Assembly (NCBI RefSeq): GCF_025061645.1
Contig: NZ_JANYMP010000009.1
Location: 15,434 to 79,433 of the forward strand
Direction: 5' to 3'
Origin: Umezawaea endophytica
GTDB taxonomy: Bacteria > Actinomycetota > Actinomycetes > Mycobacteriales > Pseudonocardiaceae
DNA: 64,000 nt
Shown here: positions 2,348-59,274 of the stretch, piece by piece
Numbering within the stretch: position 1 is the stretch's first letter
How the letters are laid out: every line of letters starts with the position of its first letter
Notes under the pieces: generated by a model
Databases searched by the model: none
The model's input: only the letters and a program-made list of their open reading frames with translations
Told to the model about the DNA's origin: nothing
Translations under genes and position numbers: made by a program

Positions 2348-2661
2348 CGGCCGAGACTAATCGCTGGAGCAAGTTGCGAGTGACTGTATTTCGCGGCCTT
2401 CAGCGTTGCCTGTTCAAGCAGTGATGTCACCGTGAGAGAACATGAAGGTGTCTCTTGAGAGAACGGGCCCTTCGCCAGTGACAAGAGGGGGTCTCGCTGC
2501 TTCGGCGCGGACCGCTGAGCTAAGCCTTCAGTCATGCAGTTACAAGACGCCTGCCTTGACCCGATCGGGTGCAACCACTGGCCTCCTTCGCGTGTGGAGT
2601 AACGCGTTGGCGCCAATCGGCGCTAATCAAGCACAGGCAGCGCGGAGCGAGGGAGGCATGG
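2348..2661. other. Intergenic, no gene seen
   Basis: The divergent spacer between the frameshifted gene and the DUF3644 gene contains only short overlapping frames without coding character. A GGGAGG ribosome-binding site at 2651-2656 serves the downstream start at 2662. Confidence 0.5.
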
Positions 2662-6199: not shown

Positions 6200-6886
6200 G
6201 TGGCATCCGGTCACGACAGGTCCACTGTCGAGCAATCCGCCACCATCGGTGGCTTGCCGGTGCGCACACATGATCACATGTGTCTCCTGTACCGAGGTGA
6301 CGAACAGCGGGACGAGCTGATGGTGGCCTTCCTCGCCGAAGGCGTCCGCGCCGGTGACCGGTGCTACTGCATGATCGCGCCTGACAACGCCCGAAGGATC
6401 GCGACGGCGGTGTCCGATCGCACCGAGCAGGCCGCAGCGGGTGTGACATTCGAAGGCCTGGGTCGGCTCGAGTTCATCGGTCCGGATGGAAGCCATGTGC
6501 GCGGCGGAGAGTTCGTGTCCGACCGGATGCTGGAGTTCTGGGAAGACTGGGGAACAACGACCTACGAGCGCGACGGCGTGGCCTATGCGCGAATCATCGC
6601 GGACATGAGCTGGGCCAAGCCGCTCGTCGATGCTCCCGGCTTTGTCATGGACCTGGCCCGCTACGAAACCCGGTTCACCCTTTGGGCCCGCCGCCACCCC
6701 CAGGTGACCGGGTGCATGTACGACCTGGACAGGTTCGACGGCGACGTGATCGTCCCGATCGTGCGAGCGCACCCGAGGGTGTGGATGAACGGTGTGGTCC
6801 TGACCAACCCGTACTTCATGGAGAGTGAGCACTTCTCGGCTGCCGAAGCGAACGAGCTGATCGGCGATGCCGCCGCGCCCCGTTGA
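6200..6886 (+). CDS. MEDS domain sensory protein
   Basis: A 228-aa protein with the MEDS domain (methanogen/methylotroph DcmR sensory domain). It shows the N-terminal HDHMCLLY motif at residues 24-31 and the C-terminal YDLDRFDGDVIV-type segment. MEDS domains are thought to bind small molecules or cofactors in signalling proteins; the ligand is unknown. GTG 6200 is preferred because AAGGAGG at 6184-6190 lies 9 bp upstream; GTG 6194 would be too close. No DNA-binding or kinase domain is fused, so output probably needs a partner. The next gene overlaps by 20 bp and a PucR regulator follows. A degraded MEDS/PucR pair lies at 25.5 kb. Confidence 0.85.
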   Translation: MASGHDRSTVEQSATIGGLPVRTHDHMCLLYRGDEQRDELMVAFLAEGVRAGDRCYCMIAPDNARRIATAVSDRTEQAAAGVTFEGLGRLEFIGPDGSHVRGGEFVSDRMLEFWEDWGTTTYERDGVAYARIIADMSWAKPLVDAPGFVMDLARYETRFTLWARRHPQVTGCMYDLDRFDGDVIVPIVRAHPRVWMNGVVLTNPYFMESEHFSAAEANELIGDAAAPR

Positions 6887-7286: not shown

Positions 7287-7484
7287 CCGGACCGCCCCGG
7301 ACGGCGGACCCGAGCACAATGACGGATCACCGCTCCGGACGGGACATGCGGCCATGCTGATGGAACCCGGTTATTCGTACCAGCGAGCCGCTGAAGACAT
7401 TCCAATCGACCGCAGCCGAGTAGTGTGCCGCACATGGCCGCTGGCCAGCCGGGGCCGCGTCAGCCGTTCGGTTGGGGAGCCGTG

Positions 7485-11264: not shown

Positions 11265-11780
11265 CCACCTTTGCTTCAGCACCACCGGGAGCCATGTCGT
11301 GGAGCAGGATTGGGCTGGTCACCTTTTCGTCGCACTGAGCACCGCAGCCTGCGACCTACGTCTGGCGTGGCGAACATTCGGTCAGGCTCAGGCGGGCCAA
11401 CCACGACTTACAAGATCAACCAAGCCTGCGCCGGTCGCTCATTCCGGTATCCGGGGCGCAGGAGGCGGGGGAAGTGCGGCCACCGCGCCGCCGAGTCCGC
11501 CGTGCGGGCCGGGAGCGGATCGCTGGGCGCTCTGGTTCGGATCTTCCTACCGCCGGTCTCATCACCGACACCGATCGACTCGGTCGACTTCAGGAAGCGG
11601 ACGAACCGCTACCCGATAGCCTGCTCGGAGAACTCCTCTAGTGACGTGCCACAAAACGTTGACCCGATAATCGATCGGTTCGGGTGATCGGCCAGGCTGG
11701 TCTCGCACGTCGAGTGCGGCAGCAGCAGTAAGCCGCGCCCCGACTTGCTTTTGACTGCGCCATCAACCGGAGGCGATGAC
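11265..11780. other. Intergenic region, no gene recognised
   Basis: About 500 bp between the dehydrogenase terminator and the aldo/keto reductase. Short frames exist on both strands but none shows a recognisable domain. GGAGG at 11769-11773 is the ribosome-binding site for GTG 11781. Confidence 0.4.
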
Positions 11781-12749
11781 GTGGAGTACGCACGGTTGGG
11801 CGACACCGGTCTGAAGGTGAGCCGGATCGGGCTGGGCTGCATGAGCTACGGCGACCCGGCCGCCGGACTGCACCGGTGGACCTTGGACGAGGACGGCGCG
11901 GCCCCGTTCTTCCGGCAGGCCGTCGAACTGGGCGTCACGTTCTGGGACACCGCGAACGTCTACCAGGGCGGCACCTCGGAGGAACTGGTCGGGCGGGCGA
12001 TCACCACGTTCTCCCGCCGCGAGGATGTCGTGCTCGCCACCAAGGTCAGCGGGCGGATGCACGACGGCCCCGGCGGCAGCGGCCTGTCCCGCAAGGCGAT
12101 CCTCGAACAGGTCGACGCCTCGCTGCGGCGGCTGGGCACCGACCACGTCGACGTCTACTACGTCCACCGCTTCGACCCCGAGACGCCCGTCGCGGAAACC
12201 ATGGCCACCCTGGACGGCCTGGTCAGGGCGGGCAAGGTCCGCTACCTCGGCGCGTCGTCGATGTGGGCCTGGCAGTTCGCCAAGATGCAGCACGTCGCCG
12301 TGGTGAACGGGTGGACGGCGTTCTCCGCGATGCAAGACCAGTACAACGTGCTCAAGCGGGAAGAGGAGCGGGACATGATCCCGATGTGCCTCGACCAGGG
12401 CGTCGGCCTGACCCCGTACTCACCGCTGGCCAAGGGCAGGGCGGCGCGACCGTGGGGCGAACAGACCGCGCGGTCGTCGTCGGACACCGTGGCCAAGGCC
12501 TTCGACCGGGCCGCCGACCAGCCGGTCGTGGACGCCGTCCAGCAGGTCGCCGAAGCCCGCGGGGTCCCGATGGCGCAGGTCGCGCTGGCGTGGCTGCTGT
12601 CCAAGCCGGTCGTGTCCTGCCCGATCGTGGGCGCGACGAAGCCGAACCACCTGTCGGACGCCGTCGCGGCCCTGGACCTCGCGCTCACCGCCGAGGAGAT
12701 CAGCGCGCTGGAGGAGTCCTACACACCCCAGGACAACTACTGGTGGTGA
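11781..12749 (+). CDS. Aldo/keto reductase
   Basis: A 322-aa NADPH-dependent aldo/keto reductase with a TIM-barrel fold, reducing aldehydes or ketones to alcohols in the cytosol. The catalytic tetrad is present: D56 and Y61 (in FWDTANVY), K88 (in LATKVS) and H129 (in VYYVHR). The C-terminal cofactor loop (CPIVGATKPNHLSDA) is also clear. GTG 11781 is preferred because GGAGG lies 7 bp upstream and the family-typical sequence EYARLGDTGLKVSRIGLG starts there. The stop codon is convergent with an AraC regulator that may control it. Length is normal for the tas/AKR11-like subgroup. Confidence 0.92.
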   Translation: MEYARLGDTGLKVSRIGLGCMSYGDPAAGLHRWTLDEDGAAPFFRQAVELGVTFWDTANVYQGGTSEELVGRAITTFSRREDVVLATKVSGRMHDGPGGSGLSRKAILEQVDASLRRLGTDHVDVYYVHRFDPETPVAETMATLDGLVRAGKVRYLGASSMWAWQFAKMQHVAVVNGWTAFSAMQDQYNVLKREEERDMIPMCLDQGVGLTPYSPLAKGRAARPWGEQTARSSSDTVAKAFDRAADQPVVDAVQQVAEARGVPMAQVALAWLLSKPVVSCPIVGATKPNHLSDAVAALDLALTAEEISALEESYTPQDNYWW

Positions 12750-12857
12750 TGTCCTCCGGCTGCCCCCTGCGGACAACAGTCGGGCGAACACCGTTGGATG
12801 ACGGATGCACAGCTACGAAACCGTGCGTCGGGGACCTCCGAGGCGGATGAAGACGAT

Positions 12858-12915
12858 TCGTCAGGCGGATAGTGCCAGGCAGGCAGAGGCGCTTCACTGG
12901 ATGTGTGGATCTTGA
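12858..12915. repeat. 58-bp dispersed repeat, copy 1
   Basis: This segment is matched without gaps by 26040-26097. The first 21 nt are identical, and by eye about 48 of 58 agree overall. It lies in the spacer between the aldo/keto reductase and the AraC gene. The other copy follows the degraded PucR/MEDS pair. It could be the end of an extinct mobile element or a duplicated intergenic segment. No inverted partner was seen nearby. Confidence 0.65.
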
Positions 12916-14427: not shown

Positions 14428-15333
14428 TCAGATCGAGCCGACGAGCGGGCCTGTTCGGACGCGGTAGACGCGTGACGGCGTGCGTGTCTCGCGGTGCGAT
14501 CGGCGGACCAACGACCAAAGCCACAGCAGGCCGACGACGGAGATCAGCGCCAGACCCAGCCAGGTGGCCGCGGTGTAGGCGGTGACCTGGGTCGGCGTCG
14601 GCTCGGGAACGGCGCCGCGCAGCAGGACCTCGTACTGCCACGGCTCGCCCGTCAGCGCCAAGGTGACGAGTACCGCGATCATCGACATCGAGTCCCACAG
14701 AGCGTGCAGCAGGGACACCCCGAGGAAGGCGAACACCAGCCGCCACGTCAGCACGAAGTGGCGCCGGGTGCTCCACGCGAAGAGCGTGCCGCCGAGTATC
14801 GCCGTCCACAGGCCGTGCCCGACCGGTGCCAGCAGTCCGCGCAGCAGCTCGGTCGTCACCAGGTTCGACAGGGACAGCCCGGAGGCGGTGAACAACGAGG
14901 TGAGCGCGTACCCGGCGGACTCGAAGGCGGAGAAACCGAATCCGACCGACGCGCCGAGGATCATCCCGTCCCGCACGGATTTCACCGCGAGGTGCCTGGT
15001 CAGCAGCGCCAGCGCGCCGAGTTTCACGGCTTCCTCGATCAGGCCCACACCGACGTACATCCACACCGACGGGTTCAGCAGGTAGGCCTCGAGCGCGGAC
15101 GCGCCCAGCACTCCGAGCACACCGCCGACCACGAACGTGCGCAACACCAGCTCCGCGGTGATCTCGCCGGAGTCTCGGCGCTCGAACGCCCACGTCACGA
15201 AAGTCACCGGTACGAGGAAGCTGCCCAGCAGCACCAGCGTGGGGATCAGGATGGGGTTGCTGGTCAGGTAGGTGACACCCGCGGTGAGCATCCACAGCGC
15301 CAGGCCTGCCAGGAACAGTCGCCGCCAGGTCAT
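14428..15333 (-). CDS. PrsW-family intramembrane metalloprotease
   Basis: A 301-aa polytopic membrane protein with about eight hydrophobic segments. It carries all three PrsW-type motifs: EEAVK at 100-104 (EExxK), FSAFE at 134-138 (FxxxE) and HALWD later (HxxxD). PrsW peptidases of the CPBP/ABI group cleave membrane-bound anti-sigma factors; the substrate here is unknown. ATG 15333 gives a 4-bp ATGA overlap with the upstream oxidoreductase, so it is the last gene of the stress operon. A longer frame upstream of this ATG is only the shadow of the previous gene. Confidence 0.87.
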   Translation of the reverse strand: MTWRRLFLAGLALWMLTAGVTYLTSNPILIPTLVLLGSFLVPVTFVTWAFERRDSGEITAELVLRTFVVGGVLGVLGASALEAYLLNPSVWMYVGVGLIEEAVKLGALALLTRHLAVKSVRDGMILGASVGFGFSAFESAGYALTSLFTASGLSLSNLVTTELLRGLLAPVGHGLWTAILGGTLFAWSTRRHFVLTWRLVFAFLGVSLLHALWDSMSMIAVLVTLALTGEPWQYEVLLRGAVPEPTPTQVTAYTAATWLGLALISVVGLLWLWSLVRRSHRETRTPSRVYRVRTGPLVGSI

Positions 15334-17009
15334 GTCCTCGCTCCGAACGAGAGGTGTTCGTGGACGAGCCGGACCACCATCGCGCCCTCGCCGACCGCGG
15401 AGCCGACTCGTTTGATCGAACCGCTGCGCACGTCGCCGATCGCGAACACGCCCGGCCGGTTCGTCTCCAGCGGGAACGGTCTCCTTCCCCTGTGCCACCA
15501 GACGTCGTTGGTCGTGACGTGCTCACCGGTCCGGACGAAACCGTCCTCGTCGAGCGCGATCAGCGAGGAGAGCCAGGCGGTGCACGGGGTCGCGCCGATG
15601 AACACGAACAACGCCCGCACCGGCAGCGTGCGCCGGTGGCGGGTCTGGTTGTTCTCGACGACCAAGCCCTCGATCTCCTTGTCGCCCAGCAACTCCACGA
15701 TCTCGGTGCACAGCAGCACCTCGATCCGCGGATGCCGCATCACGCGGTCGACCAGGTAGCGGGACATGTTCTTGTTCAGGTCGGCGTCGCGCACCACCAG
15801 GTGGACGCCGGGCACCCGGTCGGCGAGGAACACGGCCGCCTGGCCCGCCGAGTTGCCCCCACCCACGATCGCGACCGGGTTCGCCTGGCACGTACGGGCT
15901 TCGTGGATCGTGGCGGCGTAGTGCACGCTGGTCGCCTCGAAGTCGGCGAGCCGGGGCAGGGCGAGCCTGCGGTAGCGCGCGCCCGTCGCGATCACCAGCG
16001 ATCGCGTCCGGACCTGTGACGAGTTGTCGAAGCCCACCACGTAGTGCCCGTCGCGCGGGGAGAACGTGACCGCCTCCACCGACACGTTCACCGGCACGCC
16101 GAACTTCTCCGCCTGCAGCACCGCGCGTTCGGCGAGTTCCGGGCCGGAGATGCCTGCCGGGAAACCCAGGTAGTTCTCGATCCGCGACGTCGTGCCGGCC
16201 TGGCCGCCTGCCGCGATCGAGTCGACGGCCACCACGTCGAGCCCGTCCGCCGCGCCGTACACGACGGCCGCGAGGCCGCCGGGGCCCGCGCCGACCACGA
16301 GCAGGTCGGTCATGTCGTTCGGGGGAGACGACGCGTGCAGACCCAGCACCTGAGCCAGTTCCCGGTTGCTCGGGTTGCGCAGCGCCTCACCGCCGGGAAC
16401 CACCACCACGGGGGTCTCGTCGATGGTGACGCCGAACCGGCGCAGCAGTTCCTCGGCGTCGGTGTCCGTGTCCGTGTCGACCAACCGGTGCGGGATCCGG
16501 TTGCGCGCGGCGAACTCCAGCAGCCGTTTGGTGTCCGGTGAGAAGCACGAGCCGACGATCTGCAGTCCGCTACCCCTGCCGATCAGCACCGCCCGGCGCA
16601 TCAGGTACGCGCGCAGGACCAGGTCGCCCAGCACGGAGTCGCCGCGCACCAGTTCGCTCAGCCGGTCCGCGGACAGCTGGACGACCTCGCCCGGCTGTGC
16701 GACGACGGTCGTCACGAACGACGGCTGCCCTTCCAGCAGACCGAGTTCGCCGAGGAACCGGCCAGGCCCGTGCACCCGCACGACCTCGCCGTGCTCCAGC
16801 GCCTGCACAACACCGCTGACGATCACGAAGAAGTCGTGGCCGCGGTCGCCCTCGGCGTACAGCACCTCTGCCTCTCGTGTCGGACGCCGTGTCCCGTACC
16901 GCGCTACCTGGTCGATCTGGTAGCCGTCGAGGCGGGGGAAAGCACCGTGCTCGTCTGGTGTTTCCCGCAGCCCTGGTGAAAGCTCGTCAGACGAAAGCTT
17001 GATGGACAT
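15330..17009 (-). CDS. cNMP-binding / glutaredoxin-like / FAD oxidoreductase fusion
   Basis: A 559-aa three-part protein. Residues about 25-140 form a cyclic-nucleotide-binding beta-roll (GRFLGELGLLEGQPSF). Residues about 148-228 resemble a glutaredoxin-like fold with a single Cys in IVGSCFSPD. Residues 233-559 form a thioredoxin-reductase-like FAD/NAD(P)H oxidoreductase with VVGAGPGGLAA and VAIVGGGNSAGQAAVF. The CxxC of true thioredoxin reductases is replaced by VHYAATIHEARTC, which seems usual for this subfamily. It may pass electrons to a thiol partner under cNMP control. It overlaps its neighbours by 4 bp and 23 bp. A thioredoxin is three genes upstream. Confidence 0.88.
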   Translation of the reverse strand: MSIKLSSDELSPGLRETPDEHGAFPRLDGYQIDQVARYGTRRPTREAEVLYAEGDRGHDFFVIVSGVVQALEHGEVVRVHGPGRFLGELGLLEGQPSFVTTVVAQPGEVVQLSADRLSELVRGDSVLGDLVLRAYLMRRAVLIGRGSGLQIVGSCFSPDTKRLLEFAARNRIPHRLVDTDTDTDAEELLRRFGVTIDETPVVVVPGGEALRNPSNRELAQVLGLHASSPPNDMTDLLVVGAGPGGLAAVVYGAADGLDVVAVDSIAAGGQAGTTSRIENYLGFPAGISGPELAERAVLQAEKFGVPVNVSVEAVTFSPRDGHYVVGFDNSSQVRTRSLVIATGARYRRLALPRLADFEATSVHYAATIHEARTCQANPVAIVGGGNSAGQAAVFLADRVPGVHLVVRDADLNKNMSRYLVDRVMRHPRIEVLLCTEIVELLGDKEIEGLVVENNQTRHRRTLPVRALFVFIGATPCTAWLSSLIALDEDGFVRTGEHVTTNDVWWHRGRRPFPLETNRPGVFAIGDVRSGSIKRVGSAVGEGAMVVRLVHEHLSFGART

Positions 17010-17250
17010 AGCACCACCGCCAGTTCTCGCCGGGTTCCATGGAACGCACGATCGGGTGGCCGATGTCGAAAGCGTGCCTGCGCGCGTGCTTCATCGGCGA
17101 GGAGTCGCAGCAGCCGACGTGCCCACAGGTGAGGCACAGTCGCAGATGGACCCAGGGGGTGCCCGCGATGAGGCACTCCCGGCAGCCTTGAGGGGTCTGC
17201 GGCACGACGTTGCTCACGAGTGCGAGGTGTTCATCCACGACCGTGGTCAT
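16987..17250 (-). CDS. UBP-type zinc finger protein
   Basis: An 87-aa protein that is almost entirely a ZnF-UBP domain. The ligands are C23, C26, C39, C42, C47/C48 and H44, H55, H59, H65, in the order GCRECL, LCLTCGHVGCCDSS, HARRHAFDIGHP. In eukaryotes this fold binds the free C-terminus of ubiquitin. Bacterial stand-alone copies are common in actinobacteria but lack a known ligand. ATG 17250 gives an ATGA overlap with doxX; an upstream ATG at 17307 lies inside the previous gene and adds a non-conserved extension. It overlaps the oxidoreductase gene by 23 bp. Confidence 0.88.
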   Translation of the reverse strand: MTTVVDEHLALVSNVVPQTPQGCRECLIAGTPWVHLRLCLTCGHVGCCDSSPMKHARRHAFDIGHPIVRSMEPGENWRWCYVHQAFV

Positions 17251-17672
17251 CGGTCCTCCCGCGTCACGTCGTCGAGCACCAGCGACAGACCGATCCCCAG
17301 CAACCACACGTCCTTCGCCAGCGAGATGCCCTGTTCGGTCGGTCGCAGGCTGCGTTCCCGTCGCATCCCCGGTGTCTTCAGGTAGAGCCCCAGCAACCCG
17401 CCGGCGAACCCGGCGAGCGCGGCACCGGCGATGACCGCGGGCACCAGTGGAACGAGCAGCGCCACGCCGGTCGCGATCTCCCCGGCCGCGAGCAGCCTCG
17501 TGAACCGCTGGGCGTCCAGCTTGCCCAGCACCGGGTACGTGGTCGCGGCGAAGCCTTGCAACGACTCGGCGGTCTGCCGATCGGCGTGCAGCTTGCCGAG
17601 TCCCGAGTTGAGCACGTACGCGCCCGTGGTGACGCGCGCGGGCAGTTGTCGCAGCAGAGATCGGCTGATCAT
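17247..17672 (-). CDS. DoxX-family membrane protein
   Basis: A 141-aa inner-membrane protein with about four hydrophobic helices and the DoxX-type pattern (VLNSGLGKL near residue 21, TRLLAAGEIATGVALL near 58). Actinobacterial DoxX proteins have been linked to oxidative-stress complexes with thiol and superoxide enzymes. That fits its position between thioredoxin and the FAD oxidoreductase. It overlaps the neighbouring genes by 4 bp on each side, so translation is probably coupled. Confidence 0.85.
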   Translation of the reverse strand: MISRSLLRQLPARVTTGAYVLNSGLGKLHADRQTAESLQGFAATTYPVLGKLDAQRFTRLLAAGEIATGVALLVPLVPAVIAGAALAGFAGGLLGLYLKTPGMRRERSLRPTEQGISLAKDVWLLGIGLSLVLDDVTREDR

Positions 17673-18109
17673 GTCCTCACCTCCGGAACGAGAGCCTCGT
17701 CAAGCCAGGCGCGCAGCTGGGGTGCCGGCACCGCGCCGGGTTGCCGCGCGACAACCTCACCGTCGCGCAGGATCATCAGCGTGGGTATCGAACGCACGTC
17801 GAACCGCTCCGACAGGCGAGGTGCGCGGTCCACGTCCACCCGCACGAGCTTGAGGTCGCCCGCCCGCTCGTGCGCGAGCAGGTCCAGCACCGGGCTGACC
17901 ATCCGGCACGGCCCGCACCACGTCGCCCACATGTCCACCAGCACGGGAACACCCGCCTGCTCGGCCACCTCGGCGAAATCGTCGTCGAGCGCGTCGACGA
18001 TCCACGGCAGTGGCCTGCCGCAGTTGCCGCACTTCGGCTTGCCCTGTGCGGCCACGGGTACGCGGTTGGTCTTGCCGCAGTTCGAGCACTCGATGCTGGT
18101 CGTCCTCAT
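17669..18109 (-). CDS. trxC: Thioredoxin 2-type, zinc-containing
   Basis: A 146-aa thioredoxin with an N-terminal zinc ribbon. C8, C11, C27 and C30 are the two CxxC pairs (CSNC, CGNC), and W64-C65-G-P-C68 is the active site. The cis-proline loop reads RSIPTLM. This is the TrxC (thioredoxin 2) architecture, a disulfide reductase associated with oxidative stress whose zinc site is redox-sensitive. It overlaps clpB by 4 bp and doxX by 4 bp. The oxidoreductase in the same operon lacks the usual CxxC, so the electron donor is uncertain. Confidence 0.93.
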
Positions 18110-20733
18110 GCGGCGGCCCTGCTCTCACCGGACGTGATCACGGACAGCTCGCCGTCGACCACGTCCACCCGGATCGTCGCGCCCTCCGGCACCTCACCCG
18201 CGATCAGCGCCCGTGCCACGCGCGTTTCGACCTCGTGCGCGATGTAGCGGCGCAGCGGTCGCGCACCGTAGACGGGGTCGAAGCCACGCCTGGCGATGAA
18301 CTCGCAGGCCGGCGCGGTGAGCTCGACGCCGATCCGGCGTTCGGCCAGACGGGCGCGCAGCTCGGCGAACTGCAGGTCCACGATGCGTTCGATCTGCTCC
18401 AGCCGCAGTGGCGTGAACAGCACGATGTCATCGACTCGGTTGAGGAACTCGGGCCGGAAGTGGTCGCGCAGTGACGCCAGCACTGCCCCGCGCGCGTCCG
18501 GTTTGATCTCCCCGTCGGGGGTGACGCCGTCCAGCAGGTACTCCGAGCCGATGTTGGACGTCATGATGATCACGGTGTTGCGGAAGTCGACCGTGCGGCC
18601 TTGCGCGTCGGTGATCCGGCCGTCGTCGAGCACCTGGAGGAACGTGTTGAACACGTCCGGGTGCGCCTTCTCCATCTCGTCCAGCAGCACGACGGAGTAG
18701 GGCTTGCGCCGCACCGCTTCCGTGAGCTGGCCGCCCTCGTCGTAGCCGACGTAGCCGGGAGGCGCGCCGACGAGACGTGAGACCGTGTGCTTCTCCTGGT
18801 ACTCGCTCATGTCGAGGCGCACCATGTTGTCCTCGCTGTCGAACAGTGCCGCCGCCAGCGTCTTCGCCAGCTCGGTCTTGCCGACCCCGGTGGGGCCCAT
18901 GAAGATGAACGACCCGATCGGCCTGCGGGGGTCCTTCACGCCGGCTCGCGCTCGGATGATCGCGTCGGCGACCAGTTGCACCGCGTCGTTCTGGCCGATC
19001 ACCCGCTCGTGCAGGATCTGGTCCAGCTTCAGCAACTTCTCCCGCTCGCCCTCCTGGAGCCTCGACACCGGGATACCGGTCCACGCCGCGACTATCTCCG
19101 CGATCTCGTCCTCGGTGACCACTTCCTTGAGCAGCCGGTGTGCACCCTGTTTACCGGCGAGGCGCTCCTCCTCGGACGCGAGCTGGCCTCCCAGTGCGGC
19201 GAGCGTGCCGTAGCGCAGCTCCGCGGCCCGGTTGAGGTCGTAGGCGCGTTCGGCCTCTTCCGCTTCGCGGCGCACGCGTTCCAGCTCACCGCGCAGGTCC
19301 TGGACGCGCCGGATGGCCTGCCGCTCCGCCTCCCACTGCGCGGTCATGGCGTCGAGTTCGGTGCGGAGGTCGGCGAGCTCCTTGCGCAGTGCGGCCAGTC
19401 GCTGTTCGCTGGCCTGATCGGTTTCCTTGGCCAGCGCGGCCTCCTCGATCTCCAGCCGGGTCACGCGCCGCGACGTCTCGTCCAGTTCGGCGGGCATCGA
19501 GTCGATCTCGGTGCGCAGCCGCGCGCACGCCTCGTCCACCAGGTCGATCGCCTTGTCCGGCAGGAACCGGTCGGTGATGTAGCGCTGGGACAGCACCACG
19601 GCGGACACGATCGCGGCGTCCTGGATCTTGACACCGTGGTAGACCTCGAGGCGTTCCCGCAGGCCGCGCAGGATCGAGATCGCGTCCTCCGGCGACGGCT
19701 CGGCCACGACCACGGTCTGGAACCGCCGCTCCAGCGCGGCGTCGGACTCGATGTGCTTGCGGTACTCGTCGAGCGTGGTGGCACCGATCATGTGCAACTC
19801 ACCGCGCGCGAGCATCGGCTTGAGCATGTTGCCCGCGTCCATCGACCCTTCGGCTGCACCCGCGCCCACGACGGTGTGCAGCTCGTCCACGAACAGCAGG
19901 ACCCGGCCCTCGGCGGCCTTCACCTCGGCGAGCACGGCCTTGAGCCGCTCCTCGAACTCGCCGCGGTACTTGGCGCCCGCCACCAGGGAGCCCATGTCGA
20001 GGGAGAAGACCGTCTTGTCCTTGAGACCTTCCGGCACGTCGCCGCGCACGATCCGCTGCGCGAGCCCCTCGACGATCGCGGTCTTGCCGACGCCGGGCTC
20101 GCCGATCAGCACCGGGTTGTTCTTCGTCTTGCGGGAGAGGATCTGGACCACCCGGCGGATCTCCGCGTCCCGGCCGATCACCGGGTCGAGGTCGCCGGTC
20201 CGAGCGTCGTCCACGAGGTCGCGGCCGTACTTCTCCAGGGCCTCGTAGGTCCCCTCGGGCGTTGCGCTCCGCACGCGTTGGTTGCCGCGGATCCTGGTCA
20301 GGCTCTCCAGGAACCGGTCCCGCGTGATGCCGTGCCGCGCCAGGACTTGGCCCGTTTTCGTGGTGTTGCCCTCCTCCGCCAGCGCGAGCAGCAGGTGCTC
20401 GACGCTGACGTACTCGTCCTTGAGCCGCTTGGCTTCCCGTTCCGCGGCGTCGAGGAGGCCGAGCAGGCGGCGGGTGACGCTGATCTGCCCTGGTTGGACA
20501 CCCGGTCCGGTCACCTTGGGACGGCGGGAGAGTGCGGTCCGCACGTCTTCCGCCAGCGCCCGCACGTTCACGTCCGCCTGGGTGAGCAGGCGCGGCACCA
20601 AGCCATCGGGCTGCTCGACCAGTGCCAGCAGGAGGTGTTCGCCGTCGGTCTCGGTGTGCCCGAGCCGCTGGGCGACCTCCTGGGCGGACTGCAGCGCCTC
20701 CTGGGACTTCTGCGTCAGCCGGTTCATGTCCAT
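18106..20733 (-). CDS. clpB: ATP-dependent disaggregase ClpB
   Basis: An 875-aa Hsp100 chaperone of normal length. The two Clp_N repeats cover residues 1-145. The first AAA+ domain has Walker A GEPGVGKT at 211-218. The middle coiled coil spans about 410-530, which distinguishes ClpB from ClpA/C. The second AAA+ domain has GPTGVGKT at 613-620, followed by the C-terminal D2-small domain. No ClpP-binding loop is evident, consistent with disaggregation and not proteolysis. It works with DnaK, DnaJ and GrpE, all encoded just upstream. It overlaps cbpM by 10 bp and trxC by 4 bp. Actinomycetes usually carry another clpB near hspR, so this may be a second copy. Confidence 0.96.
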
Positions 20734-21020
20734 GGTCGATCACTCCCGCGCAGTTGTGCTTCCAGGACTCGGATCCGGTCGAGCAGGTCCAGCACGAGCC
20801 CGACCGCGTTGTAGTTGAGCGAGAGCCCGCCGCGCAGTCGCTGGATCCGCGCGACGCGGGCCACGGTGCCCGGCGGGAACCACAGCCGCCCGCCATCGTC
20901 CACCGCGCACTCGACCAGCCCGAGCGCCGCGAACCGGCGCACCATGTCCGGGTGGAGTCCGGTGTGGATGGACACGCGGTCGACGCTGAGTTCGGCCGGT
21001 TTCGTCAGGACGTACATCAC
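20724..21020 (-). CDS. cbpM: Chaperone modulator CbpM-like
   Basis: A 98-aa protein of the CbpM / MerR-like group. A short winged-helix-like N-terminal half ([21 protein letters not shown]) is followed by a C-terminal helix ([20 protein letters not shown]). CbpM binds the J-domain of CbpA and blocks its action on DnaK. It overlaps the dnaJ/cbpA gene by 4 bp and clpB by 10 bp. A MerR-type HspR repressor is the main alternative, but the protein is short, lacks a clear HspR tail and is preceded by a zinc-less DnaJ, which favours CbpM. Confidence 0.8.
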
Positions 21021-21898
21021 GTGCCTCTCGGGTTGAAGTCGGAGACCGCGGCGAGTTCCTCGAAGAGCTCCCGTTCCCGCTTGCCGGGAGATTTCGGCAC
21101 CATGACCTTCACGACCGCGTAGAGGTCACCGGCCTTGCCGCGCGGGTTCGGCATGCCTTCACCGCGCAGCCGCAGCCGTCGTCCGCTCGACGAGCCCGCC
21201 ACCACGCGGACCTTCGCCTCACCGCCCGGCGTCATGATCGGCACGGTGGCGCCGAGTGCCGCCTCCCACGGCGCGACCGGCAGGTCCACGATGATGTCGC
21301 GGCCTTCCAGCCGGTACCGGGGGTGCGACGCGATCCGGACCACCAGGAACAGGTCACCGGACGCGCCGCCGACGGATCCGTGCCCACCCTGGCCGGACAA
21401 GCGGATGCGCTGACCGTCCACCACGCCGGGCGGAACCGTCACGTCCAGCGTGCGGTCGCCGATCGTGAGCCTGCGGTGGCCGCCCCGGTAGGCGTCCTCG
21501 ACCGAGAGCGCCAGCTCGGCCTCCTGGTCGGCACCCGGAATCGGACCGCCGCGGCCACCGCGCCGGAAGACCCCGCCGAACAGGTCCTCGAAGTCGAAGT
21601 CCTCGAACCCGCCGTAGCTCGGCCCGCTCGTGTACACCGTGCGCCCCCGAGGAGCGCCTTCGTCGTAGTCCTCCGGGACGCGGCGGAAGTCCGCGCCGAA
21701 CTGGTCGTACCGCTTGCGTCGCTCCGTGTCCGACAGGACCTCGTAGGCCTCGCTGATCTCCTTGAACCGGTCCTCGGCGTCGGGGTCGCGGTTGACGTCC
21801 GGGTGGTACTGCCGCGCGAGCTTGCGGTAGACGCGCTGGATCTCCTCGGTGCTCGCTCCGCGTGGCACGCCGAGCGCCTCGTAGAAGTCTGTGGCCAC
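21017..21898 (-). CDS. DnaJ/CbpA-type J-domain co-chaperone without zinc finger
   Basis: A 293-aa type-B J-protein. The J domain covers residues 4-70 with the HPD tripeptide at 32-34. A Gly/Phe-rich linker (about 85-120) contains FEDFDFEDLFGG. Two beta-rich C-terminal substrate domains follow (about 125-285). The four CxxCxGxG zinc repeats of classical DnaJ are absent, as in CbpA. It stimulates DnaK ATPase and delivers clients. With cbpM next to it, CbpA-like regulation is likely. It is 6 bp from grpE. Confidence 0.93.
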   Translation of the reverse strand: MATDFYEALGVPRGASTEEIQRVYRKLARQYHPDVNRDPDAEDRFKEISEAYEVLSDTERRKRYDQFGADFRRVPEDYDEGAPRGRTVYTSGPSYGGFEDFDFEDLFGGVFRRGGRGGPIPGADQEAELALSVEDAYRGGHRRLTIGDRTLDVTVPPGVVDGQRIRLSGQGGHGSVGGASGDLFLVVRIASHPRYRLEGRDIIVDLPVAPWEAALGATVPIMTPGGEAKVRVVAGSSSGRRLRLRGEGMPNPRGKAGDLYAVVKVMVPKSPGKRERELFEELAAVSDFNPRGT

Positions 21899-21904
21899 GT
21901 CGTC

Positions 21905-22393
21905 TCACTCCCGTGCGCGCGCCACCGCGACGGCGGCGGGACGCAGATCGCCATAGCCGGGCCGCAGCACGCGCACGACTGTGTTCGGTGGCGCTTCCGG
22001 GTCGTCCAGCACCGTCACGACCTCGTGCACAGCCGGGTCGAACGGCACGCCGGTGGCGTCCTGGCGCGGATAGCCGAGCCGGGCGAGCACCTCGACGGCC
22101 TGGTCGAGGGTCGCCCGCACGCCTTCGGCGAACGCGTCGTCGGAGGCGTGCCCGAGCGCGAGCTCCAGGTTGTCGAGCACCGGCAGCCAGGCCGACGCCA
22201 CCCGCGCGCGCTCGGTCGTGAGCTGACGTTCCAGCTCGCGGTTGTGCCGTTTGCGCACGTTGTCGAGCTCGGCCATGGCGCGCAGCCAGCGGTCCTCCAG
22301 CTCGGCGACGTCCCGGTCCGGGGCCGGCGCAGGAGGGGGTGCGCCGGCCCCGGTCTCGGCCGCGGAGTTCGCGGCGTTCCCCTGGGTGGTCAT
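21905..22393 (-). CDS. grpE: Nucleotide exchange factor GrpE
   Basis: A 162-aa GrpE. It has a charged N-terminal region and a shortened coiled coil (about 28-70, ELEDRWLRAMAELDNVRKRH). The beta-domain carries the conserved GVPFDPAVHEVV motif near residue 120. It exchanges ADP on DnaK as a dimer. The shortened N-terminal helix differs from housekeeping GrpE proteins of about 200 aa. The stop and start codons to dnaK are 5 bp apart. Confidence 0.94.
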   Translation of the reverse strand: MTTQGNAANSAAETGAGAPPPAPAPDRDVAELEDRWLRAMAELDNVRKRHNRELERQLTTERARVASAWLPVLDNLELALGHASDDAFAEGVRATLDQAVEVLARLGYPRQDATGVPFDPAVHEVVTVLDDPEAPPNTVVRVLRPGYGDLRPAAVAVARARE

Positions 22394-22398
22394 CGCGA

Positions 22399-24276
22399 TC
22401 AGACCCGGTCGAAGTCCGCGTCGATGACGTCGTCGTCCGAAGCCGCGGCCGAGCTCCCGCCGGAGGAGGGCGGTGGCGCGGACGACCGTGCCGCCATCAG
22501 GCCGTTCAGCACCTGGGTGAGCTCGTCGGTCAGCTCCCGCACGCGCTCCACCGGCACCTCGTTCCGCAACGCCTCGCGGGTCTCGGAGACCAGCATCTCG
22601 GCGCGGGCCTTCTCGTGCGCCGGCGCGTTGTCGGCGAGGTCGGACAGGGCCTTCTCGACCTGGTAGGCGATCGAGTCGAGGGTGTTGCGGGAGTCCACGG
22701 CCTCGCGCAGCCGCTGGTCCTCCGCCTGGTTCGCCTCGGCGTCGGTCACCATCCGCTCGATCTCGGATGTGTCCAGGTTCGAGCTCTCGCTGATGGTGAT
22801 GCCCTGCTCCGCGCCCGTGTCCTTGTCACGGGCGGTCACTTCGAGGATGCCGTTGGCGTCGATGTCGAAGATGACCTCGACCTGCGGTTCACCACGCGGA
22901 GCGGGCCTGATCCCGCTGAGCTGGAACCGGCCCAGCACCCGGTTGTCGGCCGCGCGTTCCCGTTCGCCCTGCAGCACCACGACGTCCACCGCGGGCTGGT
23001 TGTCCTCGGCGGTGGAGAACACCTCGGAGCGGCGGGCCGGGATCGTCGTGTTCCGCTCGATGATCCTGGTCATCACCCCGCCGCGGGTCTCCACGCCCAA
23101 GGACAGCGGGGTCACGTCGAGCAGCAGCACGTCCTTGACCTCGCCCTTGAGCACACCGGCCTGGACGGCGGCACCGAGTGCCACGACCTCGTCCGGGTTG
23201 ACGCTCATGTTCGGGTCCTTGCCGCCGGTCAGGCGGCGGACGAGCTTCTGCACGGCCGGGATCCTGGTCGATCCACCGACGAGGATGACCTCGTCGATGT
23301 CGTTCGCGGACACCTTGCCGTCGGCCATGGCCTGCTCGACCGGGCCGAGGCAGCGCTCCACCAGGTCGGCCGTGATCTGCTCGAACGTCGACCGCGTGAC
23401 GGTCTCGGTCAGGTGCTTGGGGCCGCCGGAGTCGGCGGTGATGAACGGCAGGCTCACCTGGGTCTGCGTGACCGAGCTGAGCTCGACCTTCGCCTTCTCC
23501 GCCGCCTCGGACAGCCGCTGCAGCGCCTGGGCGTCGTTCCGCAGGTCGATTCCCGTGTCGTTCTCGAACTTGTCGGCCAGGTGGTCGACGAGCCTGCGGT
23601 CGAAGTCGTCGCCACCGAGGTGGGTGTCACCGGAGGTGGATCGCACCTCGACCACGCCGTCGCCGACGTCCAGCAAGGACACGTCGAACGTGCCGCCGCC
23701 CAGGTCGAACACGAGCACCGTCTCGTGTCCCTTCCTGTCCAAGCCGTACGCCAGTGCGGCCGCCGTCGGTTCGTTGATGATCCGCAGGACCTCGAGTCCC
23801 GCGATCTTGCCCGCGTCCTTGGTCGCCTGACGCTGCGAGTCGTTGAAGTACGCGGGTACGGTGATCACCGCCTCGCGCACCTTCTCACCGAGGTACTTGC
23901 TCGCGTCGTCGACCAGCTTGCGCAGTACCTGTGCGCTGATCTCCTCCGGCGCGTGGAGCTTGTCGCGCACCTTGAAGCGCACCGAATCGTTCGGTCCGGG
24001 AACGACGTCGAACGTGACCGACCTCGTCTCCTCGCCTACCTCCTCGAACCGACGGCCGATGAAGCGCTTGGCCGAGTAGATCGTGCCGTGCGGGTTCAGC
24101 ACGGCCTGGCGCCTCGCCAGCTGGCCTACCAGGCGTTCGCCGCTCTCGGTGAACGCCACGACGGACGGCGTGGTCCTGGATCCCTCAGCGCTCGCGATTA
24201 CAGTGGGCTGGCCGCCCTCCACGACCGCGATCGCGGAGTTCGTCGTGCCCAGGTCGATTCCCACCGCTGTGGCCAT
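22399..24276 (-). CDS. dnaK: Chaperone protein DnaK (Hsp70)
   Basis: A 625-aa Hsp70 beginning [20 protein letters not shown], with phosphate loops IDLGTTNS and [14 protein letters not shown], the adenosine site [13 protein letters not shown] and a substrate domain starting near residue 380 ([13 protein letters not shown]). The lid ends in a short Ser/Ala-rich linker and DADFDRV, without the long Gly-rich tail of many actinobacterial DnaK proteins. It refolds proteins with the GrpE and J-protein encoded next to it. The start codon overlaps the preceding stop codon by one base. It may be an additional copy besides a chromosomal dnaK-grpE-dnaJ-hspR operon. Confidence 0.97.
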
Positions 24277-24806
24277 TACGACGCACCCCCCGCGGGGGTC
24301 ATGCCTGCGAGCAGCCGCTGCGCCTCGTCGGCGATCTCCTCGTCCACGACGAGGTCGTACCGGCTCGGCACCATCATGGTCACGGAGCTGAAGTCGCGCC
24401 TGCCACGCTGCATCGCGTAGAAGATCACGCCGATGACCGCGCCGATGACCGCGCCGAACAGCAGGCCGTACAAAGCGAGCGCGACCGCGGCGACGAGCGG
24501 GTTGAGAAGGTCGAACAGTCCGAAGACCCAGCCGAACAGCAGGCCGGGAACGGCGCCTGCGGTGGCACCGTTCAGCAGTGCGCGGCCCCAGTTCATCCGG
24601 CCGACGACCTGCTCGACCATGCGGACGTCGACGCCGATGATCGCGGTCCGGTCGACTGGGAACTCGTTGTCCGCGAGGTGGTCGACGGCGCGTTCGGCGT
24701 CGCGGTAGGCGGTGAACGACGCGATCGTGCGCCGCTGCGACGCACTCGGCGCGATGTCACCTTCGGTGTCACCGCGCGCATGCGCACTCGAGTGATATGT
24801 GGTCAT
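24276..24806 (-). CDS. General-stress-type membrane protein
   Basis: A 176-aa protein with an N-terminal soluble domain like the general stress protein 17M/YflT domain (about 26-65, [20 protein letters not shown]). Two glycine-rich membrane helices follow at about 79-131, with GAVIGAVIG glycine-zipper spacing. A C-terminal soluble tail ([19 protein letters not shown]) completes it. The function is unknown; such proteins are common in stress regulons. It sits between hsp20 and dnaK, 9 bp after hsp20, and overlaps dnaK by one base. Confidence 0.8.
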
Positions 24807-24815
24807 GGCTGCCCC

Positions 24816-25223
24816 TCAGGCCTTGACGGCCGTTTGCTCGGAAATTTTGATCATGCGAGGCTTGCTCGACTCGGCGATCGGAATGGTCAGCACGAGCACG
24901 CCGCGGTCGAACTCGGCGGTCACATCACCGGCGGCGAGCATGTCGCCGAGGAAGAGCTGCCGGATGAACTCCCCGTGCGGCCGTTCGTCGATCAGCACCT
25001 CGTCGTCCTCCTGCCGCAGCGAGGCGCGCCTGACCTTGACCATGACCACGTTGCGTTCCACGGTCACGTCGACGTCATTGCTGTCCACACCCGGTAGGTC
25101 GAGTGCGACGATGCACCGGTCACCGCGGCGGAACGCCTCCATCGGCACTGCGCGTGACGTGAGGACTGCGTGCTCGGAGAGTCGGTCGAGTTCGCGGTAC
25201 GGGTCGAAACGCATCAATGTCAT
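24816..25223 (-). CDS. Hsp20/alpha-crystallin small heat shock protein
   Basis: A 135-aa small heat shock protein with the alpha-crystallin domain over about residues 30-120. It has the typical VALDLPGVDSNDVDVTVERN strand pattern and the C-terminal FDRGVLVLTIPIAE. ATG 25223 is preferred because GGGGAAGAG precedes it closely and the sequence MTLMRFDPYRELDRL is the usual family start; an in-frame ATG at 25277 adds 18 atypical residues. It holds unfolded proteins for DnaK and ClpB. It is the first gene of the twelve-gene operon, so the promoter should lie just upstream. Confidence 0.93.
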   Translation of the reverse strand: MTLMRFDPYRELDRLSEHAVLTSRAVPMEAFRRGDRCIVALDLPGVDSNDVDVTVERNVVMVKVRRASLRQEDDEVLIDERPHGEFIRQLFLGDMLAAGDVTAEFDRGVLVLTIPIAESSKPRMIKISEQTAVKA

Positions 25224-25494
25224 CTGAGCTCTTCCCCTTCTGGATCTTGTGTTCCGGGGGACGTGCATTGCATTCACCCTGACGAAGACACGCGGGTGTC
25301 GCGTCGCCCTGCGAGGACGAAACCCGCCCTCCGCATTGGACCCGGCAGTACGACGCCATCGGCACCAGGCTGCGTGACGGACCAGCGATTACGCGGGGGA
25401 GGCGTGGCTGTCGGAGCCGGAGACCTGATCAGCTGGGCTCGCGCCCAGCTGTCCAATCTCCACGTCCTCCTGGTGCTCCCGGCGTGCCAGTCTC
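25224..25494. other. Upstream region of the stress operon
   Basis: This 270-bp region should hold the operon promoter, reading leftwards. I looked for an HspR-type HAIR element, a CIRCE element and alternative-sigma motifs and found no convincing match. No gene is seen. Confidence 0.35.
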
Positions 25495-25756
25495 GTGGCC
25501 ATGCGCGTCCGCGTCCGCCCGGCCGGGGAGGCGCTGTTCCGAGCGGTGGTGCACGAACTGAGCACTGACACGGGCGTGGTCGCCATCGGTGGGATCCTCG
25601 ACACGGGCGAGAGCCGCGCCGAAGTCATGTCGTTCGTGTCGGAGTGGCTGGGCGGCCTGATCGATTACCACAACACTCGAGACGCGGACATGGGTGGAAA
25701 CTCGATTGAACCTCCACGTCGCGACTCGCGCGTGGCAGGTGCTGCAGGGGTGGTGA
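25495..25756 (+). pseudogene. PucR regulator remnant
   Basis: A fragment of a PucR-type regulator related to the intact gene at 7485. The first part reads EVMSFVSEWLGGLIDYHNTR, matching EFVREWLGPLIDYDSANR. The helix-turn-helix is then deleted. The last part, in another frame, reads TRLNLHVATRAWQVLQGW and stops at 25754, matching SRLNLHVASRAWRILNG. At least one internal deletion and one frame change are required, so it is non-functional. Confidence 0.8.
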
Positions 25757-25930
25757 TGAGTGCGACGTTCGACGGCGTGAAGTTCGAGATGAACGCACGC
25801 TCTTCGGGCACGATTGAACGCTGGTCTGGGGTGAACAGGCGTTCGGCGCACGCACTGCGCTCCTACGACCTGGACGTATTCGATGGCGACGTGATCATCT
25901 CGATGCCGCATCCTCTGGGCAGTGCGCCAA
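25757..25930 (+). pseudogene. MEDS domain remnant
   Basis: Immediately after the PucR fragment, the segment YDLDVFDGDVIISMPHPLG (about 25864-25920) matches the C-terminal MEDS segment YDLDRFDGDVIVPI of the intact gene at 6200. The sequence before it is not recognisable. The order here, PucR then MEDS, is the reverse of the intact locus. Confidence 0.65.
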
Positions 25931-26039
25931 GCCGCACACGGTTACCGCCGGCAGGAGTGCCGGGAGAAGCTCCGGAAGTGACACCTCAGGTCCACAGCCT
26001 GCCGGGGACTTGAAAGCGTCGCACGCGGATAGCGACGAG

Positions 26040-26097
26040 TCGTCAGGCGGATAGTGCCAGACAGACAGCGACGGTTCACTGAAATCGTGGATCTTGA
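26040..26097. repeat. 58-bp dispersed repeat, copy 2
   Basis: The partner of 12858-12915, in the same orientation and of the same length. It follows the PucR/MEDS remnants and precedes the PPOX gene. Confidence 0.65.
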
Positions 26098-26711: not shown

Positions 26712-27710
26712 TTAGGTCCGGTCGTGTGCGAGGCGGTCACGGCGTTCCTCTTCGCGCTTCGAGTACGCGGCCGCGCGGATCGCTTCGTCGGATTCCAGGC
26801 CGGTGCCGAGAGCGCCGCCGACGGTCGCCGCCGACGCGACGAACCAGGCCAGCACGAACAGGTCGCCGTAGTCGAGCGATGTGTGGAGGTAGTTGCCCAT
26901 CACGGCGGGGTCGAGGACGAACAGCGCCCAGAGCAGGTTCACGGCGTAGAGCGCGAGATAGCAGATGATCACGCCGGTGGCCAGGGTCAGCAACGTCGAG
27001 GTGTTGTAGAGACGGGATCTCTCCTTGGCCTCGGTGGAGTCGTCGTCGGGGCGATCCCACAGTTGGCCGTCGATCACGAGCCAGGCGACGACGAGTGCGA
27101 TGGAGGCGATCGACGCGACCATGAGGCGCCACCCCGACATCGAGCCTGCCAATAGCCACACCGTGGAGTTGATCGTGGCGATGGCTCCGGTCGTCAGTGC
27201 CGCGACGAGCGCGGATTTCAGTCCTGGCACGAGGAGCCACGGACGGTTGGCGAGGACCATGCCCAGGAGCAACCGCTGGCGGCCACCGCGGTGGGAGAGT
27301 GGTACGCGGTGCTGGTGCTGCGAGGTGGAGTCGGCCATGCCGCTGATGAGTGTGCGCACCGCGTTACGGGCACGGGCGTGCATGCGGAGTCCGCCGAGCG
27401 CGGGGAGCGACAGCATGGCCGTGCGTCGCTGCGGGTCGGTCTCGACCAGCAGGTATCGGCCGTCGTCGTCGCGAAGTGGAAGCTCGGTCAAGCCGATGAC
27501 GAGGTCCCACTCCTGCTGGTGACCCCGGTCCCGCAGCCGTGCCATCGCGGTGTCGACGTCCTCGGAACCGGTGGTGAACGGTTCGCTCACGATGTCGACG
27601 TCCCAGGCGTCGTGGTCCTGGCCTGTCGGCGGGTCCAGGCCGCTGAGCCGGCGCGCGATCTCGGTGGGTGAGGCCGGGTCGGCCACGAGGCCGACGTTGA
27701 TCCGTTTCAT
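26712..27710 (-). CDS. Conserved integral membrane protein
   Basis: A 332-aa protein. The N-terminal 140 residues are soluble, starting MKRINVGLVADPASPTEIA, and include DLVIGLTELPLRDDDGRYLL. The rest has about five hydrophobic segments (about 155-180, 186-205, 238-262, 264-275 and 285-310) and a charged tail. I recognise it only as a conserved actinobacterial membrane protein of unknown role. The soluble part could be a substrate- or nucleotide-binding domain. It is transcribed away from the PPOX gene's end and is followed by about 140 bp without genes. Confidence 0.7.
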   Translation of the reverse strand: MKRINVGLVADPASPTEIARRLSGLDPPTGQDHDAWDVDIVSEPFTTGSEDVDTAMARLRDRGHQQEWDLVIGLTELPLRDDDGRYLLVETDPQRRTAMLSLPALGGLRMHARARNAVRTLISGMADSTSQHQHRVPLSHRGGRQRLLLGMVLANRPWLLVPGLKSALVAALTTGAIATINSTVWLLAGSMSGWRLMVASIASIALVVAWLVIDGQLWDRPDDDSTEAKERSRLYNTSTLLTLATGVIICYLALYAVNLLWALFVLDPAVMGNYLHTSLDYGDLFVLAWFVASAATVGGALGTGLESDEAIRAAAYSKREEERRDRLAHDRT

Positions 27711-59194: not shown

Positions 59195-59274
59195 CGTCGA
59201 TGCCGCACCAGCGTGGCTCAATTCCGTAGCTACATCCCAAGCGCGAATACGCGCCCAGTCAACGATTACGCATT

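Follow-up and report, generated by a model that had tools for sequence, protein, structure and literature searches.

Why should an actinomycete that already has housekeeping dnaK, dnaJ and clpB genes carry a further chaperone set, joined to genes of thiol redox chemistry and placed between two fragments of a tRNA gene? The question is posed by a twelve-gene operon of Umezawaea endophytica that occupies positions 14428-25277, on the minus strand, of a 64,000-nucleotide stretch of contig NZ_JANYMP010000009.1. (This whole stretch is called the window below, and unqualified coordinates refer to it; it is C9:15434-79433 of the 11-Mb genome, G000 in our numbering.) An initial annotation had seen in the operon a possible transmissible stress-tolerance module. 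The answer that we hold to be rather probable is that it is a horizontally mobile, self-contained actinobacterial proteostasis cassette, with a proposed role under protein-damaging stress.

An additional chaperone set

The description as a twelve-gene chaperone and thiol-redox operon is confirmed: all twelve open reading frames (ORFs) were found in the order originally given, closely packed, with successive spacings from hsp20 to prsW of +9, -1, +5, +6, -4, -10, -4, -4, -61, -23 and -169 bp (two large overlaps stem from the choice of long starts). Ten of the twelve gene labels are backed by Pfam matches above cut-off. All genes being on the minus strand, the operon opens with hsp20, encoding a small heat-shock protein (24816-25277; HSP20, 61.2 bits; by inspection, the likely start is the ATG at 25223), and a general stress protein gene (24276-24806; YflT, 59.6 bits). 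There follow dnaK2 (22399-24276; HSP70, 817 bits, and over the cut-off of NCBIfam TIGR02350), grpE2 (21905-22393; GrpE, 101 bits), a class B J protein with its HPD motif present and its zinc repeats absent (21017-21898; DnaJ and DnaJ_C), a small protein of apparent CbpM/DafA type (20724-21020; MerR_2, 44 bits over 29) and the disaggregase gene clpB2 (18106-20733; TIGR03346, 1321 bits at a cut-off of 1232), which carries the ClpB domains of Pfam with two Walker A and two pore-loop motifs. The distal genes are trxC (17669-18109; thioredoxin in Pfam and NCBIfam), a small ORF labelled doxX (17247-17672), a UBP-type zinc-finger gene (16987-17307; zf-UBP, 45.6 bits), a flavoprotein gene (15330-17009; cNMP_binding and Pyr_redox_2) and a PrsW-like membrane protein gene (14428-15498). 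Two labels fared less well: doxX has no match in Pfam or NCBIfam, and the PrsW-like ORF has none in Pfam and only a sub-threshold one in NCBIfam (NF033739, 32 bits; cut-off 225), its residues E155, E156, H228 and H265 being conserved in all four homologues. Both genes are accessory. The proposed site-2-like protease does not stand, PrsW being named as a glutamic-type intramembrane protease and its gene recurring in only 4 of the 67 loci compared below.

The operon is an extra set. The same genome has a housekeeping locus elsewhere, where dnaK is a full-length frame (C15:82281-84005) and a protein of clpB type is encoded (C15:94982-95224), and two more DnaJ_C proteins, on C15 and C2. Chaperone families are common to the operon and to the actinobacterial housekeeping dnaK-grpE-dnaJ-hspR and clpB genes (PMC2687793; this and the other papers cited are drawn on in part, as excerpts), but the operon DnaK is 59% identical to its housekeeping counterpart, the J protein is of class B, and a CbpM-type protein stands where HspR would. 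Base composition gives no signal of foreign origin (GC content of 0.692 in the operon, 0.679 in the window, 0.692 in the housekeeping locus). What the initial annotation had set against its own proposal, a sole dnaK/clpB locus inherited vertically, is rejected by this second set, by the missing marker in genus mates, and by the sequence identities and approximately unbiased (AU) tests that follow.

Movement between chromosomes and on plasmids

The operon moves horizontally among Actinobacteria. The window and a 20.9-kb locus of Actinokineospora sp. NBRC 105648 align once, over 10,119 bp at 92.3% identity (window 15248-25345); the rest of that locus has no other match of at least 60 bp at E 1e-8, that is, no flank homology. 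Between these two genomes the nucleotide identity of rpoB is 88.5% and that of the housekeeping dnaK 87%, against 94.7% for dnaK2 and 94.0% for clpB2. Two genus mates, with rpoB 97.8 and 97.7% identical to that of U. endophytica, gave no match to the operon DnaJ used as a marker, and in a DNA search for dnaK each of them showed a single copy, against two in each of three carriers. Conversely, two members of the Actinokineospora genus group (G078 and G118) have rpoB identity of 94.8%, yet their dnaK2 and clpB2 are 17-19% apart. A clade of G078+G118 is rejected by the operon data (p-AU 4e-5), and a grouping of window+G078 by rpoB (p-AU 3e-30), on quick trees of 26 genomes under a simple model (G101 and G126 dropped as incomplete).

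Blocks of 7.6-12.9 kb are common to separate genera and, in one case, to separate orders. Nocardioides allogilvus and Dietzia cinnamea have a 7.6-kb block in common at 93.7% and nothing else of at least 300 bp; Rhodococcus plasmid pDK4 and a Nocardia farcinica plasmid have 9.8 kb in common, also at 93.7%, plus shorter pieces; and two genomes of different genera (G105 and G044) have 12.9 kb in common (94.5% identity), besides two short pieces. In the genus mates the matches to the flanks are scattered, and no single empty site was found there.

Plasmids carry the operon as well. The DnaJ marker occurs at E 1e-50 in ten of 72,556 plasmid records (seven Rhodococcus, two Streptomyces, one Nocardia), of which eight were read; H4 and H5, the unread ones, have the length of pDK4 (109,875 bp). 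Each of the eight contains dnaK-grpE-J-cbpM-clpB-trx; UBP and the flavoprotein are each annotated in seven. In five of them (pDK4, Nocardia, GD02, P23, NBC_01001) the annotation of the same stretch includes recombinase, Tni/TnsA-type or insertion sequence (IS) transposase genes, no such annotation being present in the other three stretches; by typing, three of the eight plasmids count as mobilizable. In pDK4 the operon lies between two 1.14-kb direct copies (87%) of a gene of an unnamed family (L127 9323-10462 and 22949-24085), which could recombine it out. The source fields (soil, oil-polluted soil, wastewater, compost or sediment for 7/10, Homo sapiens for one, two blank) are suggestive only.

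Patchy distribution, conserved core

The presence of the operon in Actinobacteria is patchy; where its core occurs, trx, UBP and cNMP/TrxR genes mostly accompany it. A GTDB genome scan with the operon DnaJ, of which the best 80 of 83 relatives were kept, found the five core genes dnaK-grpE-dnaJ-cbpM-clpB by tblastn in 35 of these best 80 loci, some others being cut by contig ends. Among the carriers are Actinokineospora, Lentzea and Kutzneria, which by their matching loci are of the family of U. endophytica, and further Kibdelosporangium, Pseudonocardia, Streptomyces, Frankia, Nocardioides, Paenarthrobacter, Dietzia, Planosporangium and some metagenome-assembled genomes. With U. endophytica itself counted, the DnaJ marker is present in 1/3 genomes of the genus, in 24/150 of the family at E 1e-30 (21 at 1e-60), and, in rough counts since six candidates per genome were scored, in 40/397 of the order (24 of 86 genera) and 9/396 of the phylum. 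(A technical note: the marker overcounts the operon. Among 29 marker-positive genomes read, namely the 21 family genomes at 1e-60 and eight more, four lack the core: G088, G292, G443 and G478, G443 being cut by a contig end.)

ORFs were clustered on 67 loci chosen for an operon-type DnaJ (L079-L081, L085, L086, L088-L121, L176 and L183-L185 were left out, as were the Lentzea stretches L182, L188 and L189, which L044 represents). The resulting counts (dnaK 65, clpB 61, grpE 61, dnaJ 57, trx 42, cNMP/TrxR flavoprotein 40, cbpM 22, general stress protein 20, hsp20 20, prsW 4 and doxX 4) are the reason for regarding the core as conserved and hsp20, doxX and prsW as variable; for short genes, cbpM and UBP among them, counts based on ORF calling are too low. 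The claim of transmissibility is thus supported, by plasmid copies, by blocks crossing genera and, in one pair, orders, by tree conflict and by patchiness; stress tolerance, the other half of the claim, is a matter of what the genes suggest.

The tRNA-Pro(GGG) setting

That the operon lies between tRNA repeats is right in that exact tRNA-Pro(GGG) 3' ends stand on either side of it, but no complete tRNA is present in the window. The left copy, a candidate attachment site (1070-1113, plus strand), is 100% identical over 44 nt (tRNA nt 32-75) to the intact tRNA of the genus mates G022 and G060; the right copy (58995-59037, plus strand) is 100% identical over 43 nt (nt 33-75). Both belong to a 209-bp direct repeat (1063-1271 and 58987-59195), of which a 32-bp piece has two copies in the window against a mean of 0 in 100 shuffles. 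Repeated tRNA 3' ends typically mark a tRNA gene at which elements have stacked. In G022, which is without the operon marker, the intact tRNA is followed by more 3' copies 15.8 and 66 kb on (L230-L232): the same tRNA-Pro(GGG) site is an integration hotspot of the genus.

How general is the association? In a survey of 55-151 kb around the operon in each of 23 genomes (3' ends of at least 40 nt at 87% identity or better), a tRNA-Pro(GGG) gene or 3' end was near the operon in five: U. endophytica, Kutzneria viridogrisea (G019), G057, G078 and G106. In K. viridogrisea the sequence is found upstream of the hsp20 match, at a distance of about 0.9 kb, in G106 an intact tRNA is 42 kb away, and only in U. 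endophytica are copies found on both sides. Matches at 77% in G042, G097 and G526 are to other tRNAs and were left uncounted. Across a further 111 loci (997 kb), strong tRNA-Pro matches are limited to three, which were fetched through matches to this part of the window. A binomial estimate for 5/23 gives 7e-6 at 1.2% per genome and 0.001 at 3.5%, a guide only, the rates being assumed and the genomes related. A link of the operon to tRNA genes in general is rejected: ARAGORN made 19 calls in the 23 neighbourhoods, with no excess by eye, and only tRNA-Pro(GGG) stands out.

A separate 73-bp direct repeat (82%; 12843-12915 and 26025-26097) brackets the operon more closely. These are its only two copies in the genome; elsewhere one copy was found about 16 kb upstream of a Lentzea (G007) operon and none in eight other genomes searched. 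It has no Rfam match and was rejected as the tRNA repeat of the initial annotation, which is the 209-bp pair.

Chaperone parentage and redox partners

Where do these chaperones come from? In a quick tree (with long-branch warnings among the other DnaKs), the 32 operon DnaKs used, of 65, fall on one side of a branch of SH-aLRT (Shimodaira-Hasegawa-like approximate likelihood ratio test) support 100, with 20 housekeeping and other DnaKs on the other. Among solved structures, DnaK2 is best matched by the DnaK of 9dvi (755 bits, against 674 for 6w6e), an entry that also contains DafA and DnaJ 2; the host's housekeeping DnaK behaves in the opposite way (6w6e 1049 bits, 9dvi 662). The J protein has its best matches in the DnaJ 2 chains of 6psi and 9dvi (210 bits), with 4j80 also among its best relatives, and ClpB2 in 1qvr (1026 bits, against 994 for 6dju). 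We take 9dvi and 1qvr to be from Thermus thermophilus and 6w6e and 6dju to be mycobacterial. The class B DnaJ of 4j80 is from Thermus (PMC8215388). By these scores DnaK, DnaJ and ClpB appear nearest to DafA/Thermus-type chains among solved structures.

The operon of T. thermophilus has the order dnaK-grpE-dnaJ-dafA-clpB, and DafA assembles a stable DnaK-DnaJ complex. The actinobacterial operon has the same gene order, with a class B DnaJ, a small DafA/CbpM-type protein and ClpB; it differs in being a mobile set with thioredoxin, UBP and cNMP/TrxR genes added, and in a small protein slightly nearer to CbpM than to DafA (profile matches of 1.3e-10 to CbpM 3ucs and 1.3e-7 to DafA 9dvi; in NCBIfam, HspR 28.0 and CbpM 27.2 bits, both far below threshold, the CbpM cut-off being 138). 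In the E. coli CbpA-CbpM pair, too, a modulator of the CbpM family follows a J protein without zinc (PMC4063869, PMC8215388), whereas here the two are embedded among dnaK, grpE and clpB.

The thioredoxin (Trx) is intact: it has WCGPC and two further CxxC pairs, with a zinc-ribbon-like CxxC pair at the N-terminus, the active-site cysteines being conserved in 42/42 homologues and the N-terminal ones in 41-42/42. The AlphaFold2 model of the flavoprotein (predicted local distance difference test score, pLDDT, 77; predicted template modelling score, pTM, 0.61) comprises a cyclic nucleotide monophosphate (cNMP) domain, a Trx-like strand-helix stretch (149-221) and a domain resembling thioredoxin reductase (TrxR). 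Foldseek matches it to TrxRs, the longest alignments among the 50 matches listed (431-436 columns) being to AhpF; against TIGR01292 it scores 196 bits, below the cut-off of 343, and its Cys374 is conserved in 37/39 homologues.

Regulation

A PucR-type gene occurs in 25/67 loci, divergent and upstream in 21. The window's intact copy (7425-9167, plus strand; GGDEF_2 and HTH_30), the probable operon regulator, is away from this usual place, 5 kb beyond the far end of the operon; what stands upstream (25301-26013) are decayed, internally deleted remnants with short colinear matches to Lentzea L044 from 6677 down to 3213, the region with the PucR gene.

HspR governs the housekeeping dnaK and clpB (operator consensus and regulon from PMC2687793), and operator-like sites are found at the housekeeping locus (L122), before dnaK (3177, 3216) and before clpB (13598), four in total with 0.34 expected. 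With up to 2 mismatches there are two at the housekeeping dnaK and none in 65 operon upstream regions, a null of limited weight (shuffles average 0.35 of 65) which shows that the operator is not common to the two loci, and no more. With up to 3 mismatches the whole window has none (1.16 expected). Among sigma-factor patterns, SigR/H-type and strict SigB-type sites were found in 0/65 upstream regions (shuffle means 0.60 and 0.12), and a looser SigB pattern in 2/65 (shuffle mean 0.69). CIRCE-like sites number three in the window, all weak, below the 6.3 expected, with none upstream of hsp20, and the over-represented upstream words are GC-rich ones only.

Likeness to the proteobacterial heat-resistance locus

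The initial annotation had likened the operon to the locus of heat resistance, or transmissible locus of stress tolerance (tLST), of proteobacteria, which confers tolerance of heat, pressure or chlorine. As logic the analogy is fair: both are cargo of mobile islands or plasmids, and both combine a small Hsp and an Hsp100 with genes of redox or envelope function, in addition to what the housekeeping set provides. As to components it fails. The operon Hsp100 passes the ClpB equivalog and scores 770 and 751 bits against NCBIfam ClpK and ClpG, whose cut-offs are 1900; membership in the tLST is rejected by this shortfall of more than 1100 bits. FtsH, YfdX, KefB and DegP have no match (Pfam, NCBIfam) among the twelve proteins. 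Instead the operon has ClpB with its own full DnaK system, and it resides in another phylum. HdeD and PsiE are further tLST modules, neither of them found among the twelve proteins; of the neighbourhoods examined here, DUF308 (presumably linked to HdeD) occurs in 8/67 loci, trypsin-like proteins in 5/67 and PsiE in one plasmid. The operon would solve the problem of disaggregation in the opposite manner, by bringing along a full DnaK partner system.

A proposed mechanism and its rivals

Judged by its genes, the operon probably helps cells to survive protein-damaging stress. Heat, solvent, oxidant or drying would lead a dedicated PucR-type regulator, rather than HspR, to turn the operon on; Hsp20 would hold proteins as they unfold; DnaK2, together with GrpE2 and the class B J protein, would hand aggregates to ClpB2, which would thread them out; the CbpM/DafA-type protein would gate or assemble the DnaK-J protein pair; and thioredoxin with the cNMP/TrxR-like flavoprotein would re-reduce oxidised thiols of the recovered proteins. 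Independence from the host's HspR circuit would let the operon function on arrival in a new host. The best published hint of function, by gene names, is from Rhodococcus opacus R7: on o-xylene, RNA-seq found a DnaK, CbpA, GrpE and thioredoxin region, a candidate counterpart of the operon, up 2.3-3.7-fold, with a ClpB also up (PMC7434839).

A number of observations weigh against such a mobile cassette, or against parts of it. Stress tolerance is a phenotype that we infer from the genes, and the R. opacus R7 region is only a putative copy of the operon. Expression in U. endophytica is uncertain because the upstream region is decayed, and the limited weight of the HspR result belongs here too. 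The tRNA-Pro link is absent in 18/23 genomes, the five positives being of one family. Neither Pfam on chosen ORFs nor a tyrosine-recombinase motif scan recognised a tyrosine or serine integrase close to the tRNA fragments (of mobile genes the nearest, 0.2 kb from the left copy, is an rve ORF of DDE type, 37-828), and for this reason the chromosomal island may now be immobile. The TrxR-like domain has CxxC in 0/39 homologues (one of 40 was dropped for length), so that of the thiol-repair claim the thioredoxin stands firmly and the reductase less so; yet a cNMP + TrxR enzyme from Red Sea brine, of the same description, is reported to reduce thioredoxin (PMC6544261), and on that account a Trx-reducing role for the flavoprotein is plausible. 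Finally, CbpM Glu62 contacts the HPD histidine of the J domain (PMC4063869), a contact lost here: a by-eye alignment places Gly at that position, the Tyr/Arg of DNA-binding MerR proteins being likewise missing. Because both are missing the small protein is best named a putative J-protein modulator of undecided sign, inhibiting or assembling.

If the operon is primarily a chaperone set, why should it not be simply an old one? A second operon inherited vertically, lost in many lineages and exchanged on occasion, would serve niche-specific folding rather than transmissible tolerance, and its wide spread in the phylum, the single DnaK clade and the clustering of some same-genus copies (G125, G057 and G019, for example) are in keeping with that. 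It is strained by the recent transfers, that is, by 94-95% identity across genera where rpoB has 88.5%, by the marker missing from genus mates with rpoB of 97.7-97.8%, by the AU rejection, by the Nocardioides-Dietzia block at 93.7% and by the ten plasmid records; we regard it as unlikely, and as able to hold for the deeper branches only. Slightly less likely again is that the operon in U. endophytica is a decaying passenger, acquired and then silenced through degeneration of its divergent regulator region. The colinear remnants at 25301-26013 and the scarcity of coding-like ORFs in parts of the surroundings speak for this, but all twelve frames are open, with 75-94% protein identity to Actinokineospora, and an intact PucR gene lies 5 kb past the far end.

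Might the chaperones serve the vehicle and not the host? DnaK-type systems act on plasmid initiators (PMC8215388), and an operon resident on plasmids and islands might fold replication or transfer proteins; thioredoxin, TrxR-like, UBP and Hsp20 cargo fits this poorly, and we think it improbable. The least probable of these readings, to the point of being very doubtful, places the operon within the tLST itself, as a new, actinobacterial branch of that proteobacterial island: to the common logic of Hsp20, Hsp100, thioredoxin, membrane protein and mobile setting, and to the DUF308, trypsin-like and PsiE-type neighbours of some loci, it must oppose an Hsp100 that is a plain ClpB with its own DnaK, more than 1100 bits short of ClpG and ClpK, and the lack of FtsH, YfdX and KefB among the twelve proteins.

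Neighbouring genes

Two families recur beside the operon: a MEDS-domain protein (6071-6886, plus strand; 8/67 loci) and the unnamed family noted in pDK4, which has predicted hydrophobic stretches (26712-27710, minus strand; 15/67 loci; the window copy is without a Pfam match). A DUF1931 gene is near the operon in 17/67 loci (L127 22311-22751, for example), in several directly after the flavoprotein gene; the window contributes no ORF to that cluster. Within the tRNA-bounded stretch, near its left end, lies a gene for a DUF3644 protein (2569-3759), and some 10 kb ahead of the left repeat one for a NACHT/STAND-type protein with an FGE-sulfatase domain (L228 4210-6846), with the look of defence or signalling. 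An aldo/keto reductase gene (11745-12749) has 91% DNA identity over 981 bp to the genus mate G022, where no neighbouring match to the window is listed.

Implications

A mobile proteostasis island is a known kind of element; its composition, its phylum and its regulator are, as far as searches show, new. (The literature search covered titles and abstracts, subscription papers lying largely outside it, and within that scope found no description of the operon as a mobile module.) To a wider proposal we give about an even chance: that the operon represents an undescribed class of mobile actinobacterial island, in which a Thermus-type DnaK-GrpE-J-DafA/CbpM-ClpB system, joined to a thioredoxin and a flavoprotein reductase of its own and in many cases to a PucR-type regulator, is spread by plasmids (including those of Rhodococcus from polluted sites) and by tRNA-Pro(GGG) islands, has an origin separate from that of the proteobacterial tLST and confers instant tolerance of heat, solvent or oxidant. 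If that is true, transferable stress tolerance would have two evolutionary origins or more, each with its own kind of disaggregase, and a single acquisition could equip Actinobacteria of many families with a complete system of folding and redox repair. The operon would then also offer a natural test of why a cell should benefit from another DnaK system kept apart from the one it has.

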